64,000 bases of DNA from an uncultured Lachnospiraceae bacterium (GTDB lineage Bacteria; Bacillota; Clostridia; Lachnospirales; Lachnospiraceae): assembly GCA_900319245.1 (NCBI GenBank), contig ONNQ01000007.1:29441-93440 (forward strand), given 5' to 3'. Of this stretch, positions 34,298 through 41,260 are shown piece after piece (the stretch's first letter is position 1; each line of letters starts with the position of its first letter). The notes below the pieces were generated by a model. It saw only the letters and a list, made by a program, of their open reading frames with translations, ran no database searches and was not told the DNA's origin. The position numbers and the translations under genes were made by a program.

Positions 34298-35575
34298 ATG
34301 GAACGAGAAACTATGTGCATTCAGGCCGGATACACGCCCCAAAATGGAGAATCCAGAATGATTCCGATCATTCAGAGTACCACTTTTAAATACGATACCA
34401 GCGAAGATATGGGCAAACTGTTCGATCTTGAAGCGGAAGGTTATTTTTATACACGTCTGCAGAATCCCACCAACGATATGGTCGCAGCCAAGATCTGCGC
34501 GCTGGAGGGCGGAACCGCCGGCATGCTGACTTCCTCCGGACAGGCTGCCAACTTCTTCAGCGTCTTTAACATTGCCACTTGCGGCGATCACGTTGTATGC
34601 GCCTCCACCATCTACGGCGGCACGTTCAATCTGTTCAATGTCACCATGCGCAAGATGGGCATCGATTTCACTTTTGTCGATCCTGACTGCAGCGATGAAG
34701 AACTGAAAAACGCATTTAAGCCCAACACCAAGGCCGTTTTTGGCGAGACCATTGCCAATCCCGCCCTTGTCGTATTTGATATCGAGCGCTTCGCCAATGC
34801 GGCGCATGCGCACGGCGTTCCGCTGATCGTCGACAATACATTTGCGACGCCTATTAACTGCAGACCCATCGAGTGGGGCGCTGATATCGTCACCCATTCG
34901 ACAACCAAATATATGGACGGTCACGACGCAACTGTAGGCGGCGCGATCATCGACGGCGGCAAGTTTGACTGGATGGCACACGCCGACAAGTTCCCCGGAC
35001 TCACCACGCCCGACGACTCCTATCACGGCATCACCTACGCCGAAAAGTTCGGCCTTGGCGGTGCGTTCATCACCAAGTGTACCGCGCAGCTGATGAGAGA
35101 TTTTGGCTCCATCCAGGCGCCCATGAATGCGTACTTCTTAAATCTTGGCCTGGAGTCCCTGGCTGTCCGCATGCCCAGACATTGCGAGAACGCGCAGAAG
35201 GTCGCCGAATTCCTGCAGGGACATGAGAAAGTGGCCTGGGTCACCTATCCCGGACTTCCCGGTGACAAGTACTATGAGCGCGCCAAGAAATACATGCCCA
35301 ATGGCACTTGCGGCGTCATCTCCTTTGGTCTTAAGGGCGGCAGAGCTGCCGCAGAGGCATTTATGAAAAAGCTCAAAGTCGCCATGATCGCAACCCATGT
35401 GGCGGATGCGCACACCTGCATCCTGCATCCCGCCAACTCCACACACCGCCAGCTTACAGATGAAGAGCTGATCGCGGGCGGCGTTGGACCGGATCTAATC
35501 CGTCTGTCGGTTGGTATCGAAAACGTCAAGGACATCATCGCAGATCTCGAGCAGGCGCTCGCATCGATCCAGTAA
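34298..35575 (+). CDS. metY: O-acetylhomoserine sulfhydrylase (Cys/Met metabolism PLP enzyme)
   Basis: PLP enzyme forming homocysteine from O-acetylhomoserine and sulfide, or a close relative such as methionine gamma-lyase; 425 residues, the length of MetY rather than the ~390 of MetB/MetC. The N-terminus ETMCIQAGYTPQNGESRMIPIIQSTTF is typical of MetY. The PLP lysine is in THSTTKYMDGH near residue 208; SSGQAANFF and YGGTFNLF are cofactor-site motifs. The C-terminus ends HPANSTHRQL...IRLSVGIENVKDIIADLEQAL. ATG 34298 has GGAGG 9 nt upstream; an in-frame TTG 6 nt earlier is less likely. Single-gene unit facing a gene-free stretch. Confidence 0.92.
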   Translation: MERETMCIQAGYTPQNGESRMIPIIQSTTFKYDTSEDMGKLFDLEAEGYFYTRLQNPTNDMVAAKICALEGGTAGMLTSSGQAANFFSVFNIATCGDHVVCASTIYGGTFNLFNVTMRKMGIDFTFVDPDCSDEELKNAFKPNTKAVFGETIANPALVVFDIERFANAAHAHGVPLIVDNTFATPINCRPIEWGADIVTHSTTKYMDGHDATVGGAIIDGGKFDWMAHADKFPGLTTPDDSYHGITYAEKFGLGGAFITKCTAQLMRDFGSIQAPMNAYFLNLGLESLAVRMPRHCENAQKVAEFLQGHEKVAWVTYPGLPGDKYYERAKKYMPNGTCGVISFGLKGGRAAAEAFMKKLKVAMIATHVADAHTCILHPANSTHRQLTDEELIAGGVGPDLIRLSVGIENVKDIIADLEQALASIQ

Positions 35576-35603
35576 TCCGCTGTTCTCCAGATATTGATTT
35601 TCT

Positions 35604-35664
35604 AAAAAGGGGCTGGCGCATGAAGCGAAGGATTCGATCCTTTCGCAGGTGCGGCAAGCCCCTT
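35604..35664 (-). terminator. Forked terminator of the leftward structured RNA (copy A)
   Basis: On the minus strand an outer AAGGGGCT/AGCCCC stem encloses an inner GCGAAAGGATC...GATCC-type hairpin and is followed by TTTTTAG. The T-run points to leftward transcription, away from metY (which stops at 35575), so it fits the structured RNA rather than metY. Confidence 0.65.
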
Positions 35665-35885
35665 CAAAATTGCATTGAAATCGCGGGATTCACATAGATC
35701 CTTCCTCTCGCTGCGGAGGGAACCGCTGATCCAGAACTCGCCGTCCGCTCCGATGACCGGCCGGCTCGGACATGTTGGGCTTTCGGGCTGCAGGAGCTGC
35801 AGCCCTCATTCCCTCCTCCGCTCGGGAAGGATCTGGTTCATCCTGACGCTTATTTCAAAGCAATTTTTCCGGGGCTTACCACACC
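35604..35885 (-). ncRNA. Structured RNA element, copy A (unidentified family)
   Basis: Read on the minus strand, a closing stem pairs 35860-35880 with 35653-35673 (AAAATTGC and GGTAAGCCCC arms). Inside are a conserved GCTTTGAAATAAGCG (35847-35861) and a long basal stem beginning GATCCTTCC/GGAAGGATC (35825-35833 with 35697-35705). A GGGCTGCAG-CTC-CTGCAGCCC hairpin lies at 35785-35805 and is followed by GAAAGCCC; a GC-rich hairpin with loop GTCATCGGAG lies at 35740-35765. A conserved CCCGCGATTTCAA stretch is at 35672-35691. The same order of elements with different stem sequences recurs in copy B. No open frame with a ribosome site explains the region. Confidence 0.6.
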
Positions 35886-35989
35886 CGCTGAGAATAATTC
35901 CTAACGCCAGGCTTCATACGCCTAGTTTTTGTTTTTAGGTACTGCAGCACTTGAGAGAGGGATTCTCTATTGTACGGCACGTTTTTATA

Positions 35990-36286
35990 GGAGGGACAGA
36001 CTACCCCACAGAGCATGGCTTTGAAATGAGCGGTCAGTTTTGCTGGATTTTTATGGAAGTGAGAGCAAAGGGTGAGGGCGGCAGCTCCTGCTGCCCGAAA
36101 GCCCGCAATGTCTGAGGCGTCCGGTCATCAGAGCGGACGCCGAGTTTGGGCGAGCCCTGCTCGAACGACATAAAAATCCACTGCACAAACTCCGCGAATA
36201 CAACGCCTGCTCTGTGGGGTAGTCTGCCTTTTAAAAAAGGGCATTGCCCTCGCTGATGAATCAGCAAGATGCAATACCCTTTTTTA
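35990..36286 (+). ncRNA. Structured RNA element, copy B (unidentified family)
   Basis: On the plus strand a perfect 19-bp closing stem pairs 35997-36015 with 36208-36226. Inside are conserved GCTTTGAAATGAGCG (36018-36032) and a basal stem GGATTTTTATG/CATAAAAATCC (36045-36055 with 36169-36179), extended by GAGCA...TGCTC. Then come the hairpin 36076-36096 (one G-U pair) followed by GAAAGCCC, the hairpin GGCGTCCG/CGGACGCC with loop GTCATCAGAG (36116-36141), and CTCCGCGAATACAACGC (36190-36206). The core aligns to copy A at 63 of 73 positions, while closing and basal stems differ in sequence but stay paired. It ends in a forked terminator with TTTTTT. Confidence 0.65.
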
Positions 36287-36290
36287 TATG
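36218..36290. repeat. Repeated 3' terminator domain, copy 1
   Basis: From GGTAGTCTGCC to ATATG this stretch recurs at 62226-62306. It contains GGGCATTGC paired with GCAATACCC around an inner GCTGA-TGAA-TCAGC hairpin, with T-runs on both strands. It therefore serves copy B (plus) and the fructose PTS gene (minus) as a bidirectional terminator. Confidence 0.75.
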
Positions 36291-36313
36291 ATCCATAAAC
36301 CGAATCGAGTCTT

Positions 36314-38203
36314 TTATTCAGCGACATCCTTCTTGAGGAGCGCCAGCATAAAGAAGCTGACCAGCGTTCCAACAACAAGACTTGCCAGATACATGATAGG
36401 ATTTCCAACAACCGGGAATACGAAGATTCCACCGTGCGGCGCCATCAGCGTGCAGCCAAACAGTTCGGAGCACAGGCCTGCTGCCGCAGAACCGATTACA
36501 CAGCTGGGGATGACACGTGCAGGGTCAGCTGCTGCGTAAGGGATTGCACCTTCTGTGATGAAGGAAAGGCCCATGATGAAGTTGACAGGTCCATTGTCGC
36601 GCTCGGTCTTGGTCCACTTGTTCTTGCTCAGGATTGTGGAAAGAGCGATTGCGCAAGGAGGCGTCATGCCGCCGATCATGACAGCTGCCATGATGTCATA
36701 ATTGCCGGAAGCGATGGAAGCTGTTCCGAACAGATAAGCCGCTTTGTTGAAGGGGCCGCCCATATCGATGGCCATCATGCCGCCGACAATCGCGCCGAGC
36801 AGAAGCTTGGAGCTGCCGCCCATGCTGGCGAGACCGTTGTTCAGCCCTATGTTGATCGCACCGACGATGGGCTCAATAATGAAGTTCATACCCAGACCGA
36901 TGATCAGAATACCGAACAGCGGGAAGATCAGAACAGGGGCAATCTTCTCAATTGCATCCGGAAGCTTGTCCGTAACTTTCTTGAGAACCTGGATGATATA
37001 GCCTGCCAGGAAACCTGCTACCAGAGCGCCGAGGAAGCCGGACTTACCATTTGCCGCGATCATACCGCCGACAAAGCCGACTGCAAGTGCGGGTCTGTCA
37101 CCGATGGACTCCGCAATATAACCGGCAAGGACAGGAAGCATGAAACCGAACGCGACGCCGCCGATTCCCTTGAGCGTCGCTGCGACAGGTGTGAAGGAAC
37201 CAAAGTTTCCATCCTGGGGAGCGCCGGCAAGACCGTCAACCAAAAACGCCAGTGCGATCAGGATACCGCCGCCGACAACGAAGGGAAGCATGTGGGACAC
37301 GCCGTTCATCAGGTCCATATAGGCCTTGTGACCAAGGCTGTCGCCGCCACTGGAGCTTGCTTCTGCCGCAGCTGCATTTTCAGCTGTAAATACAGGCGCA
37401 TCACCGCTGATAATTCTGTCAACCAGCTGATCGGCCTTGGAAATACCATCGGATACCTGGCAGGTGATTACCTTCTTGCCGTTGAAACGATCGGTGGGCA
37501 CCTTGGTATCGACGGCCAGAATGACGCCGTCCGCATCCGCAATTTCCTGTGCCGTGATCACGTTCTTGGCACCGGAGGACCCTCTCGTTTCTACCTTGAC
37601 CCAGCATCCCTTGGCTTCTGCTGCCTTCTGGATCGCTTCTGCCGCCATGTAAGTATGGGCAATTCCTGTCGGGCAGGCTGTCACGGCGAGAATCTTCTTT
37701 CCTGCACCTGCAGATACAGGAGCCGCCGCCTGTGCCGGCGCCGCCTCTTCCACGTCGTACTTGTCGCAGATCGCGAGGAACTCATCCGGGCTGGAAGCGG
37801 ACTTCAGTGACTTTACAAAGTCGTCATGCATGAGCAGTCTGGAGAGTTTAGCCAGAACATCCAGATGGATATTGTCCTTCGTGTTGGGCGCCGCGATCAG
37901 GAACAGAAGATCAACCGGCTCTCCGTCGAGCGCCTCATATTCTACGCCGCCCGGGATAACCATAGCGGCAAGTCCCGGGCTCTTGACTGCGTCGCATTTT
38001 CCGTGCGGAATTGCAATTCCGTCGCCGATTCCCGTGGTTCCCTCTGTCTCACGGAAGAAGACCTGCTCTTTATAAGCCTTGTAATCAGAAATGTTGCCCG
38101 CTTTTTCCATCAGGGAGATTGCCATTTCCAGGCACTCCGCCTTGTTGGTAGGCGCAGCCTTGAGCGAGATGCTCTCCTTCTTCAGAAGGTCTGTGATTTT
38201 CAT
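36314..38203 (-). CDS. fruA: Fructose-type PTS enzyme II, fused EIIA-EIIB-EIIC
   Basis: Imports and phosphorylates fructose (or a related hexose) at the membrane; 629 residues in the order IIA-IIB-IIC. The IIA phosphorylation histidine is in GIAIPHGKC (H67), the IIB cysteine in AVTACPTGIAHTYMAAE (C177). The IIC membrane domain (about 290-620) has SGVSHMLPFVVGGGILIA-like and TEGAIPYAAADP motifs. ATG 38203 is used, with AAAGGGG 8 nt upstream. Unlike most fru operons there is no 1-phosphofructokinase or DeoR regulator next to it, so the gene stands alone here. Its stop is next to the repeated terminator domain shared with the structured RNA. Confidence 0.94.
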   Translation of the reverse strand: MKITDLLKKESISLKAAPTNKAECLEMAISLMEKAGNISDYKAYKEQVFFRETEGTTGIGDGIAIPHGKCDAVKSPGLAAMVIPGGVEYEALDGEPVDLLFLIAAPNTKDNIHLDVLAKLSRLLMHDDFVKSLKSASSPDEFLAICDKYDVEEAAPAQAAAPVSAGAGKKILAVTACPTGIAHTYMAAEAIQKAAEAKGCWVKVETRGSSGAKNVITAQEIADADGVILAVDTKVPTDRFNGKKVITCQVSDGISKADQLVDRIISGDAPVFTAENAAAAEASSSGGDSLGHKAYMDLMNGVSHMLPFVVGGGILIALAFLVDGLAGAPQDGNFGSFTPVAATLKGIGGVAFGFMLPVLAGYIAESIGDRPALAVGFVGGMIAANGKSGFLGALVAGFLAGYIIQVLKKVTDKLPDAIEKIAPVLIFPLFGILIIGLGMNFIIEPIVGAINIGLNNGLASMGGSSKLLLGAIVGGMMAIDMGGPFNKAAYLFGTASIASGNYDIMAAVMIGGMTPPCAIALSTILSKNKWTKTERDNGPVNFIMGLSFITEGAIPYAAADPARVIPSCVIGSAAAGLCSELFGCTLMAPHGGIFVFPVVGNPIMYLASLVVGTLVSFFMLALLKKDVAE

Positions 38204-39199: not shown

Positions 39200-39481
39200 T
39201 CAGTCGGCAAATTCCACGATCAGACCGGGATTGGCGTCTACCGCCGCCTTACACATCTGCTGCATAGCCGCAAAATATCTTGGCATGCTCTGCGCAAATT
39301 CCGTGCAGTTGATGAAGCAGATCAGGCAGTGATTGCCAAAACACGGTTCTGTCAATAGATCATGAAGCGCATCCAGGTTTCTCCCATACCATTCCGGAAC
39401 CGGAAGGGCAGCTTCGATCCTCTCATGCAGTTCTTTCCGGGCCGCAACGCCCGCAAGATCGATGATATACTCGTTGTTCAT
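39200..39481 (-). CDS. Barstar-family ribonuclease inhibitor
   Basis: A 93-residue cytosolic immunity protein predicted to bind and block a barnase-type RNase. It has the barstar pattern IDLAGVAARKELHERIEAALPVPEWYGRNLDALHDLLTE, where the WYGRNLDALHD helix supplies the aspartate that plugs the RNase active site. GGAGGAG precedes the ATG. It directly follows the barnase-type gene (gap 34 nt) on the same strand, so the pair forms a toxin/immunity unit in which the inhibitor protects the producing cell from RNase that is not yet exported. Confidence 0.92.
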   Translation of the reverse strand: MNNEYIIDLAGVAARKELHERIEAALPVPEWYGRNLDALHDLLTEPCFGNHCLICFINCTEFAQSMPRYFAAMQQMCKAAVDANPGLIVEFAD

Positions 39482-40132: not shown

Positions 40133-41260
40133 TCAGTCAAAAATCCTGCGGATTCCCGCAATGGTCCGGTAATCTGCTCTCTCACTGATCTTGATCCCGT
40201 CACGGCTGTTGGACGCATGGACAATCCTGCCGTCTCCCAGATAAATGGCGACATGGCCATAATAGCAGATAATATCGCCCGCCTTTGCCTCTTTGAGGGA
40301 GGCGACGCGCTTTCCTTTCGTGCGGATCGCCGCGTCATAGTGCGGAAGACTGACCCCGAAATGACGATAGATCAGCATCACGAATCCGGAACAATCGGTT
40401 CCCTTGGTCAGACTGTTGCCGCCATATACATACGGATTTCCCACAAACTGCAATGCATATTGGGCGACCAGTTCTCCCTTGGTGCGGACTACCTTATTCT
40501 CGTCCGATTCCTTCGCCGCCGTGCTCTTTACAGTGCTTCCGGATTCTGCTGCGCCAGTCTCCTTCTTCTCGTCATTCGTTTTCTTTTCATCAAGGACGCC
40601 GTTTGCGCCAAAATAGTACTTCTTTCCCTTCAGCGTCAGCCAGCCCGTCTTCATCGCCCCGCTGGATGTAAAATAGTACCGTTTCCCGCCGAGCGTCAGC
40701 CAGCCCGTCTTCATCGCCCCGCCGGATGTAAAATAGTACCGTTTTCCGCCTAGCTTCAGCCAGCCCGTCTTCATCGCCCCGCCGGATGTAAAATAGTACC
40801 GTTTCCCGCCTAGCTTCAGCCAGCCCGTCTTCATCGCCCCGCTGGCAGTCAGATAATAGCGCTTTCCGCCATCTCCCAGCCAACCGGTCTTCATTGCGCC
40901 GCTGCGCGTAAGGTAATACCATTTCCCGTTGTCCCTGACCCATCCGGTCTTCATTTTTCCGTCTCTGCCAAGGAAGTACCACTTACCGCCATCCTTGATC
41001 CAGCCCGTCAGGGCCTTTCCATTCCGCACATAAAACCAGCTTCCGTCCCTCTTGTGCCACCCGTTTCCAAGATAGCGGAACACATACAAGCCATATGCAT
41101 CCTTTCGATGGCGGCTGTCGCCTGCTGCGACCCTGCCCTCCGATATGCTGTATTGGCAGGTTGAAGAAACCGCTCCGGTTCCGGCCGTGGCGGCCTGCGC
41201 GGGAAGTGTCGTAACGATCATCAGGCATATTCCCATAATTGCTGCAAGTCGTTTTGTCAT
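40133..41260 (-). CDS. Secreted NlpC/P60 endopeptidase with tandem wall-binding repeats
   Basis: A 375-residue exported peptidoglycan hydrolase. Signal peptide MTKRLAAIMGICLMIVTTLPAQAA is cut after AQA. Residues about 55-210 hold some eight 20-residue wall-binding repeats of the form TGWLKLGGKRYYFTSGGAMK. Residues about 255-375 form the NlpC/P60 domain with catalytic Cys (GTDCSGFVMLIY) and His (YYGHVAIYLGDGRIVHAS). It should cut peptide stems in the wall. Repeat units at 40639-40878 are nearly identical in DNA with exact 60-bp period, so the array expanded recently. GGAGAG precedes the ATG. The barnase and barstar genes follow at 41 and 34 nt. Confidence 0.92.
   Translation of the reverse strand: MTKRLAAIMGICLMIVTTLPAQAATAGTGAVSSTCQYSISEGRVAAGDSRHRKDAYGLYVFRYLGNGWHKRDGSWFYVRNGKALTGWIKDGGKWYFLGRDGKMKTGWVRDNGKWYYLTRSGAMKTGWLGDGGKRYYLTASGAMKTGWLKLGGKRYYFTSGGAMKTGWLKLGGKRYYFTSGGAMKTGWLTLGGKRYYFTSSGAMKTGWLTLKGKKYYFGANGVLDEKKTNDEKKETGAAESGSTVKSTAAKESDENKVVRTKGELVAQYALQFVGNPYVYGGNSLTKGTDCSGFVMLIYRHFGVSLPHYDAAIRTKGKRVASLKEAKAGDIICYYGHVAIYLGDGRIVHASNSRDGIKISERADYRTIAGIRRIFD
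40639..40878 (-). repeat. Four 60-bp tandem coding repeats
   Basis: Four consecutive in-frame units of exactly 60 bp (20 codons) in the NlpC/P60 gene. The first three share almost every base, including GCCAGCCCGTCTTCATCGCC. The fourth diverges only at its end. Confidence 0.9.

Follow-up and report, generated by a model that had tools for sequence, protein, structure and literature searches.

In the window, which is the whole 64,000-nt stretch of DNA that was analysed, two convergent genes, which we take to be metY-like and fructose PTS-like, end at 35575 and 36314, respectively. By sequence and open reading frames, the 738-bp gap between them (35576-36313) holds no plausible gene, in agreement with the sequence-only reading, which had described a stretch of about 740 nt without one. 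Within the gap lies an inverted pair of giant hairpins (35604..36286, no strand assigned), delimited by sequence and open reading frames, which encodes no protein and has the same divergent layout as the other neighbouring copies described below. Elsewhere in the window, the minus strand encodes a small protein at 39200-39481, presumably barstar-type inhibitor-like, and a secreted protein with repeated units at 40133-41260, whose units we take to be cell-wall-binding-like and whose end we take to be NlpC/P60-like.

Copies A (minus strand) and B (plus strand) were confirmed at the positions that the sequence-only reading had given them, and each hairpin unit is approximately 250 nt. Copy A (35637..35887, minus) and copy B (35993..36230, plus) are rod-like hairpins with folding energies of -144.9 and -166 kcal/mol and z-scores of -7.8 and -13.1, respectively, and for each of them 0 of 100 shuffles were as low. 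With DNA energies, the z-scores were -9.4 for A and -11.2 for B. The covariance model R1 matched A at 35693-35838 and B at 36041-36182. Apical hairpin 1 of the three-way junction was placed by fold and alignment at 35785..35805 (minus, helix 4) in A and at 36076..36096 (plus) in B. Apical hairpin 2 lies at 35740..35765 (minus, helix 7) in A, with the conserved GGUCAUCRGAGC loop and the UGU..GAG / CGAGUU motif on either side, and, by fold and alignment, at 36116..36141 (plus) in B, again with the conserved loop. The closing stem of A pairs GGTAAGCCCC with GGGGCTTGCC with one G-T, and that of B is a perfect 19-bp stem (35997-36015 with 36208-36226, read from the sequence); both had been described as complementary within their own copy, and both are. 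The common core of A and B covers 74 bases at 86% identity by blastn, in line with the earlier count of 63 of 73 aligned positions. The outer end of A (35604..35636, minus) is the terminus GCGCCAGCCCC followed by a T run, which is terminator-like here by its sequence and which reads GCGACAGCCCC in many A-type copies. The outer end of B (36231..36286, plus) is a hairpin and then a T run by sequence and fold. No promoter-like sites were found in the spacer between the two 5' arms (35888..35992, no strand assigned).

A and B are members of a family that matches no Rfam entry at cut-off. The Rfam 15 scan of the whole window at gathering thresholds gave 0 matches, and 35500-36350, scanned with permissive settings, yielded 8 hits, every one far under its cut-off (best E 0.054), which bears out the earlier remark that the family was unrecognised and perhaps new. 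Counting its own genome, blastn with copy B found relatives in 18 of 62 genus genomes and 2 of 397 of the family sample; likewise counting it, model R1 (built from 22 A-type copies) matched 26/62 and 2/397, and model R2 (built from 129 copies, the L077 minus match included) matched 32/62, 5/397 and, in the order sample, 2/354. The R1 and R2 counts are lower bounds because the model searches used strict filters. By R2, the genomes G004, G015, G006 and G012 have 45, 25, 17 and 16 copies, respectively. The carriers outside the genus (G150, G209, G265, G275 and G704) all belong to the same taxonomic family; the G704 genome, a single contig, has two copies, and the G150 copy, on a 3.5-kb contig of an assembly that has about 260 of them, may be a contaminant. 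The copies L316 (G209) and L317 (G275) are distant members with near-perfect outer stems that by eye measure about 60 bp, an unusual length for a palindrome in a chromosome. In named genomes, the core was matched exactly in 16 stretches, with titles that are all Lachnospiraceae or Clostridia; any host given in these titles is a ruminant. A phage or plasmid origin was rejected after one copy compared with each collection gave no match, and viral contigs queried with one exact 18-mer gave 0 matches. Minimal GGGGCTGYCGCA hairpins as the mobile unit were also rejected, as they occur in only 5 of 62 genomes, 1-2 in each. In searches of the open-access literature, we found no account of the giant-hairpin family.

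Each copy of the family is a rod with variable outer stems and an apex of two hairpins that form a three-way junction, and by eye the rod contains tandem G-A loops. The best-conserved letters are UGU..GAG, parts of the hairpin 2 loop and CGAGUU, while the outer stem is the least conserved part and by eye the outer stems have no common sequence. The covariation in the family is far beyond chance. In alignment A5, which was fitted to the structure (129 copies, 127 distinct, from 100 of 121 fetched stretches), 93.6% of cells pair, compared with 63.5% in shuffles and 38-46% with slid partners, and all 40 of 40 stem pairs have two-sided changes (1450 cells against 370 in shuffles). In an unfitted alignment of 22 A-type copies, 92.0% of cells were paired against 86.4% after shuffling, and two-sided cells numbered 44 against 14.2. 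Homologues with covariation beyond the window's own genome, on which the sequence-only reading had depended, were found. Nine sequences (L052, L091, L042, L057, L061, L063, L074, L084 and L097) were left out by hand from the early alignment set, and of the 62 remaining, 3 are absent from A2 and 5 from A3. The L077 minus match is a palindrome echo; it was kept in the covariation counts and in the G-U and A-C counts (169 to 62) and dropped from later counts. A pseudoknot of UCUGA with the apical loop was rejected, since its letters, matched by motif search in 76 of 128 copies, show no covariation.

Of 125 copies, 124 by DNA energies and 123 by RNA energies fold more stably as the sense than as the antisense strand; therefore, selection seems to act on one strand of defined polarity. 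Covariation above that of shuffles together with this bias marks a functional single-stranded fold, of RNA or of single-stranded DNA. The bias is equally strong in RNase P RNA (28/30 with RNA energies and 29/30 with DNA energies), so stability bias cannot separate DNA from RNA.

Neighbouring copies (within 1.5 kb) were divergent in 27 of 27 cases, with no gene shared by their spacers; the lone +,- case was a single palindrome matched on both strands. These pairs contain 54 of the 128 copies, and the other 74 are single or have a partner that was not seen, some of them at contig ends. With site classes that rest on longest-frame gene calls, 20 of the 27 pairs were classified as lying between tandem (10), convergent (8) or divergent (2) genes, and 61 of the 74 solos as tandem (32), convergent (19) or divergent (10), so that tandem or convergent gaps outnumber divergent ones by 69 to 12 among 81 classified clusters. 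The element is extragenic, multicopy and dispersed, as REPINs are.

The copies appear to have moved between loci. The window pair and a pair in G052 are 94% identical over 241 bases in B (blastn) and 96% over the 146-nt model region in A, and the G052 pair lies on contig C4 beside an aconitase-family gene, at a locus that differs from that of the window. Downstream of the metY-like gene of G052, on contig C7, there is no copy and only a short hairpin, so the closest relative appears to have an empty site at the window-type locus; its PTS gene is only 67% identical to that of the window, and the G052 gap may therefore not be fully orthologous. Several A-type copies, among them L054, L057, L078, L081, L082 and L086, end at the same base, ...CGACAGCCCC, and then run into unrelated flanks. 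No target-site duplication was shown for the element copies. No recurring neighbour protein from which a function could be read emerged: the commonest Pfam family was listed in 3 of 101 scanned neighbours (of 180) among the best 25 of 151 families, and the largest neighbour cluster apart from frames over the element itself comprised 6 loci. By eye, L052 and L091 are hybrids in which the 3' half of A is joined to the 3' half of B, which is consistent with a deletion between the two apices of one pair. In L055 and L059 (G004), the spacers between the hairpins are filled, by eye, by a repeat unit of about 70 bp, AAACACCTCCGCAAAGGTTT...

The pair statistics of the family were compared with those of RNase P RNA from 30 genus genomes, a single RNA control, which is few for a G-U comparison, and one whose alignment rests on RNAalifold while that of the family is model-fitted. 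In the family and in RNase P RNA, respectively, the G-U share of pairs was 3.6% and 14.8%, the G-U to A-C ratio was 2.7 and 20, the ratio of one-sided to two-sided changes was 0.068 and 0.67, and the G-U share where Watson-Crick pairs flank was 2.8% and 11.8%. The same kind of count on REP hairpins, which are DNA repeats, gave 3.8% G-U (18 against 453; 94 of 113 sequences kept). The fitted alignment holds 169 G-U and 62 A-C, and the unfitted alignment A4 holds 17 and 31. Single mismatches in the 40 model pairs at 75% clusters were GU 49, GA 46, GG 14, AC 11 and AA 6, with no pyrimidine-pyrimidine mismatch; those of RNase P were GU 55, AC 6, GA 2, GG 2, UU 2 and CU 1 at 85% clusters, and GU 25 and GA 2 at 75%, where there were 3 clusters only. 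The REP hairpins have 1 G-A only, so the G-A excess is peculiar to the giant-hairpin family. When the arms were aligned into the outer stems, with G-T scored as any other mismatch, isolated mismatches were GT 132, AC 87, purine-purine 166 and pyrimidine-pyrimidine 100, which makes the strand bias of mismatches weak in the outer arms. Where close copies differ by single changes, 11 such changes could be counted, and 5 of them involved G-U. Of the earlier claim of selection on RNA structure, the selection on a folded strand stands; the identification as RNA is weaker, as the pair statistics are unlike those of RNase P RNA.

With promoter scoring by sigma-70 consensus only, no promoter signal was found upstream of the 117 of 128 copies that were scored (the rest are too near contig ends): the mean best score was 5.50 against 5.89 in shuffles, and 5 of 117 reached at least 9. 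Downstream of the same copies, the mean was 5.76, with 17/117 at 9 or more. The positive control, upstream of 29 RNase P loci, gave a mean of 13.83 against 6.63 in shuffles, with 28 of 29 at 9 or more. In the window, 35400-36500 holds 0 promoter-like sites where 0.9 are expected by chance, so this says little alone. As an exception, L058 (2040-2110) and the matching L086 flank hold, by eye, a promoter-like TTGATA-17-TATAAT sequence on the upstream side of the rod, at a distance of about 200 nt; a terminator-like hairpin stands between the two, and the arrangement is common to both genomes. In four pairs (L193, L181, L169 and L163), the spacer between model starts is 100-148 nt and is largely filled by the 5' arms, which by eye nearly abut. 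The hairpin and T run said to end each copy are present after both window copies; a motif search found 17 distinct CGACAGCCCC ends, mostly A-type, and in 5 of them at least 4 of the next six bases are T, so a terminator-like end is no feature of the family. Readthrough transcripts of both flanking genes would cover the window copies in antisense only.

We give even odds to the pair being a single mobile element, similar to a REPIN, whose two giant hairpins are under selection as single-stranded DNA. In that form, for instance on the lagging strand, the hairpins would be recognised by a DNA-processing enzyme that would move or copy the pair, as RAYT (Y1/HUH) transposases are thought to do for REPINs. 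The stems might drift because pairing alone matters, and the apex might be kept because a protein reads it. It counts against this reading that conservation is lowest in the outer stem, the part that transposases usually read. The wider proposal, which we make tentatively and at somewhat under an even chance, is of a new class of mobile DNA that would be recognised as one large, folded single strand: two inverted hairpins of about 250 nt with a conserved three-way-junction apex, a "giant REPIN" with ssDNA pairing rules, covariation that mimics an ncRNA, and an HUH-type or other mobiliser.

A true ncRNA family, in which two divergently transcribed RNAs of about 250 nt bind a protein or another RNA with rod and apex, and whose copies spread with promoters of their own or with borrowed ones, would explain the massive covariation, the fold tied to one strand, the conserved asymmetric loops, the excess of G-U over A-C in the fitted alignment (169 to 62) and the hairpin and T run after both window copies. 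The family is low in G-U, the 117 copies lack an upstream signal where the RNase P control is strong (sigma-70 consensus only), the 5' arms nearly abut by eye in the four pairs named above, a T run follows just 5 of 17 scored ends, and readthrough of the flanking genes yields only the antisense of the window copies. We therefore consider this reading doubtful, and less likely than a paired ssDNA-hairpin mobile element; the missing promoters, the abutting arms and the dispersed, inverted and moved copies speak against the two divergently transcribed RNA genes of the sequence-only reading. A MITE whose outer terminus GGGGCTGTCGCA is read by a DDE transposase, with pairing kept by template-switch palindrome correction and without selection of a folded strand, seems quite improbable to us. 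Several A-type copies do have a precise outer terminus, L041 has a similar left end, the outer arms do hold pyrimidine mismatches, and a DDE transposase (PF13751), presumably of IS1182 type, adjoins the G150 copy (L058), with fragments in L043. But palindrome correction would favour neither strand, whereas by DNA energies all but one of the 125 copies fold better as the sense strand; the 40 model pairs hold purine-purine and no pyrimidine-pyrimidine single mismatches; and by eye the terminus is absent from the copies of G004, G012 and G015, bar the one G012 locus L041.

Least probable of all, in our opinion very unlikely, are host-adopted gene-end structures, which would act as bidirectional terminators or insulators where genes are convergent or in tandem. 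The 3' ends of many copies do face a nearby gene end, and the window copies have terminator-like ends; however, termination does not require a 250-nt rod whose apex is conserved, relatives make do with short hairpins at this site, T runs are not conserved, and 12 of the 81 classified clusters lie between divergent genes.

For the mobile REPIN-like element, we also considered a mobiliser. Of 39 copies in G004, 24 have the repeat REP1 on their 3' side, all in the orientation of the copy and 0 in the opposite one, and 8 of 13 pairs have it at both ends; in G006, it is 3' of 6 of 12 copies, and 2 of 3 pairs are bracketed. The order in G004 and G006 is the REPIN order with rods inside, and inverted REPs that bracket most of these pairs point to a RAYT there. 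The fetched G012 loci have no REP1, and in G015 it lies beside 1 of 10 copies. Y1 genes occur in 29 of the 32 genomes that bear the element and in 15 of the 30 that do not, an association that is confounded by descent. In 40 RAYT-type gene stretches, R1 gave 0 matches and R2 gave one 24-nt match (E 0.7), and 29 of the 40 genes have REP1 or REP2 within 600 nt. A RAYT as sole mobiliser was rejected and kept as a hint only, as the 40 RAYT-type loci lack the element and G012, with 16 copies, has no Y1 match. Among the RAYT-type Y1 genes of L260-L298, from several genus genomes, 29 of 40 lie near matching palindromes, REP1 AGAACCGTCCCC (stem varying) or REP2 ACCCCAGAGGTC, and by eye those of L279, L290 and L296 lie near palindromes of their own; REP/RAYT systems look diverse in the genus. 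In five G004 loci (L161, L162, L167, L169 and L171), a second repeat, AATGTCATT... or a variant, starts immediately behind AGAACCGTCCC, as though REP1 were the target of an insertion sequence. In L086 (7231-7780), the end of an IS200-type element, comprising a tnpA C-terminus and what looks like the right end, adjoins an A-type copy at the contig end.

Covariation is the usual proof of a new structured RNA, and this family passes it far beyond chance; even so, the molecule that folds may be DNA, as its pair statistics, its lack of promoters, its inverted pairs and its mobility suggest. If so, compensating changes on both sides of a stem are not by themselves proof of an RNA, and the family could serve to test whether G-U content and mismatch types distinguish selection on RNA from selection on ssDNA. 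To the genomes of ruminant-gut Lachnospiraceae it contributes a further repeat family, one much larger than REPs.

Several known systems resemble the family in part. Like Rfam structured RNAs, the giant hairpins have covarying stems, conserved loops and one strand; unlike them, they have no Rfam 15 match at cut-off, no promoter signal and few G-U pairs. MITEs, ERIC and BOX are short, non-coding, dispersed palindromic repeats. The giant hairpins are likewise non-coding, dispersed and palindromic, but they vary at the ends and conserve the centre, and their stems diverge widely yet stay paired; MITE-type ends are precise in several A-type copies and different in other genomes. The single-stranded DNA hairpin substrates of the IS200/IS605 and attC type have a fold that is read on one strand and conserved unpaired bases. 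The giant hairpins share both, but the element has no transposase or integrase gene, and its order is inverted rather than same-strand.

The closest comparison is with REPINs, which PMC3116915 describes as inverted REP doublets that form hairpins with compensatory changes. According to PMC3733652, REPs are sited between tandem and convergent genes, and RAYTs have REPs or other inverted repeats on either side. Unlike REPINs, the giant hairpins have a unit of about 250 nt against 20-40, a three-way-junction apex, and a conserved part that is the apex and not the foot; no cognate RAYT flanked by them was found in 40 RAYT-type loci. As for the GTAG or CGTC foot tag of REPINs, the outer stems have no common sequence by eye. 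Since two of five REPIN features (unit size and cognate RAYT) were lacking, the family was not filed as REPIN, although its working is REPIN-like. What it shares with REPINs, as far as PMC3116915 and PMC3733652 describe them, is an extragenic, multicopy inverted doublet that also occurs as singlets, with compensatory changes in its hairpins and with sites between tandem or convergent genes.
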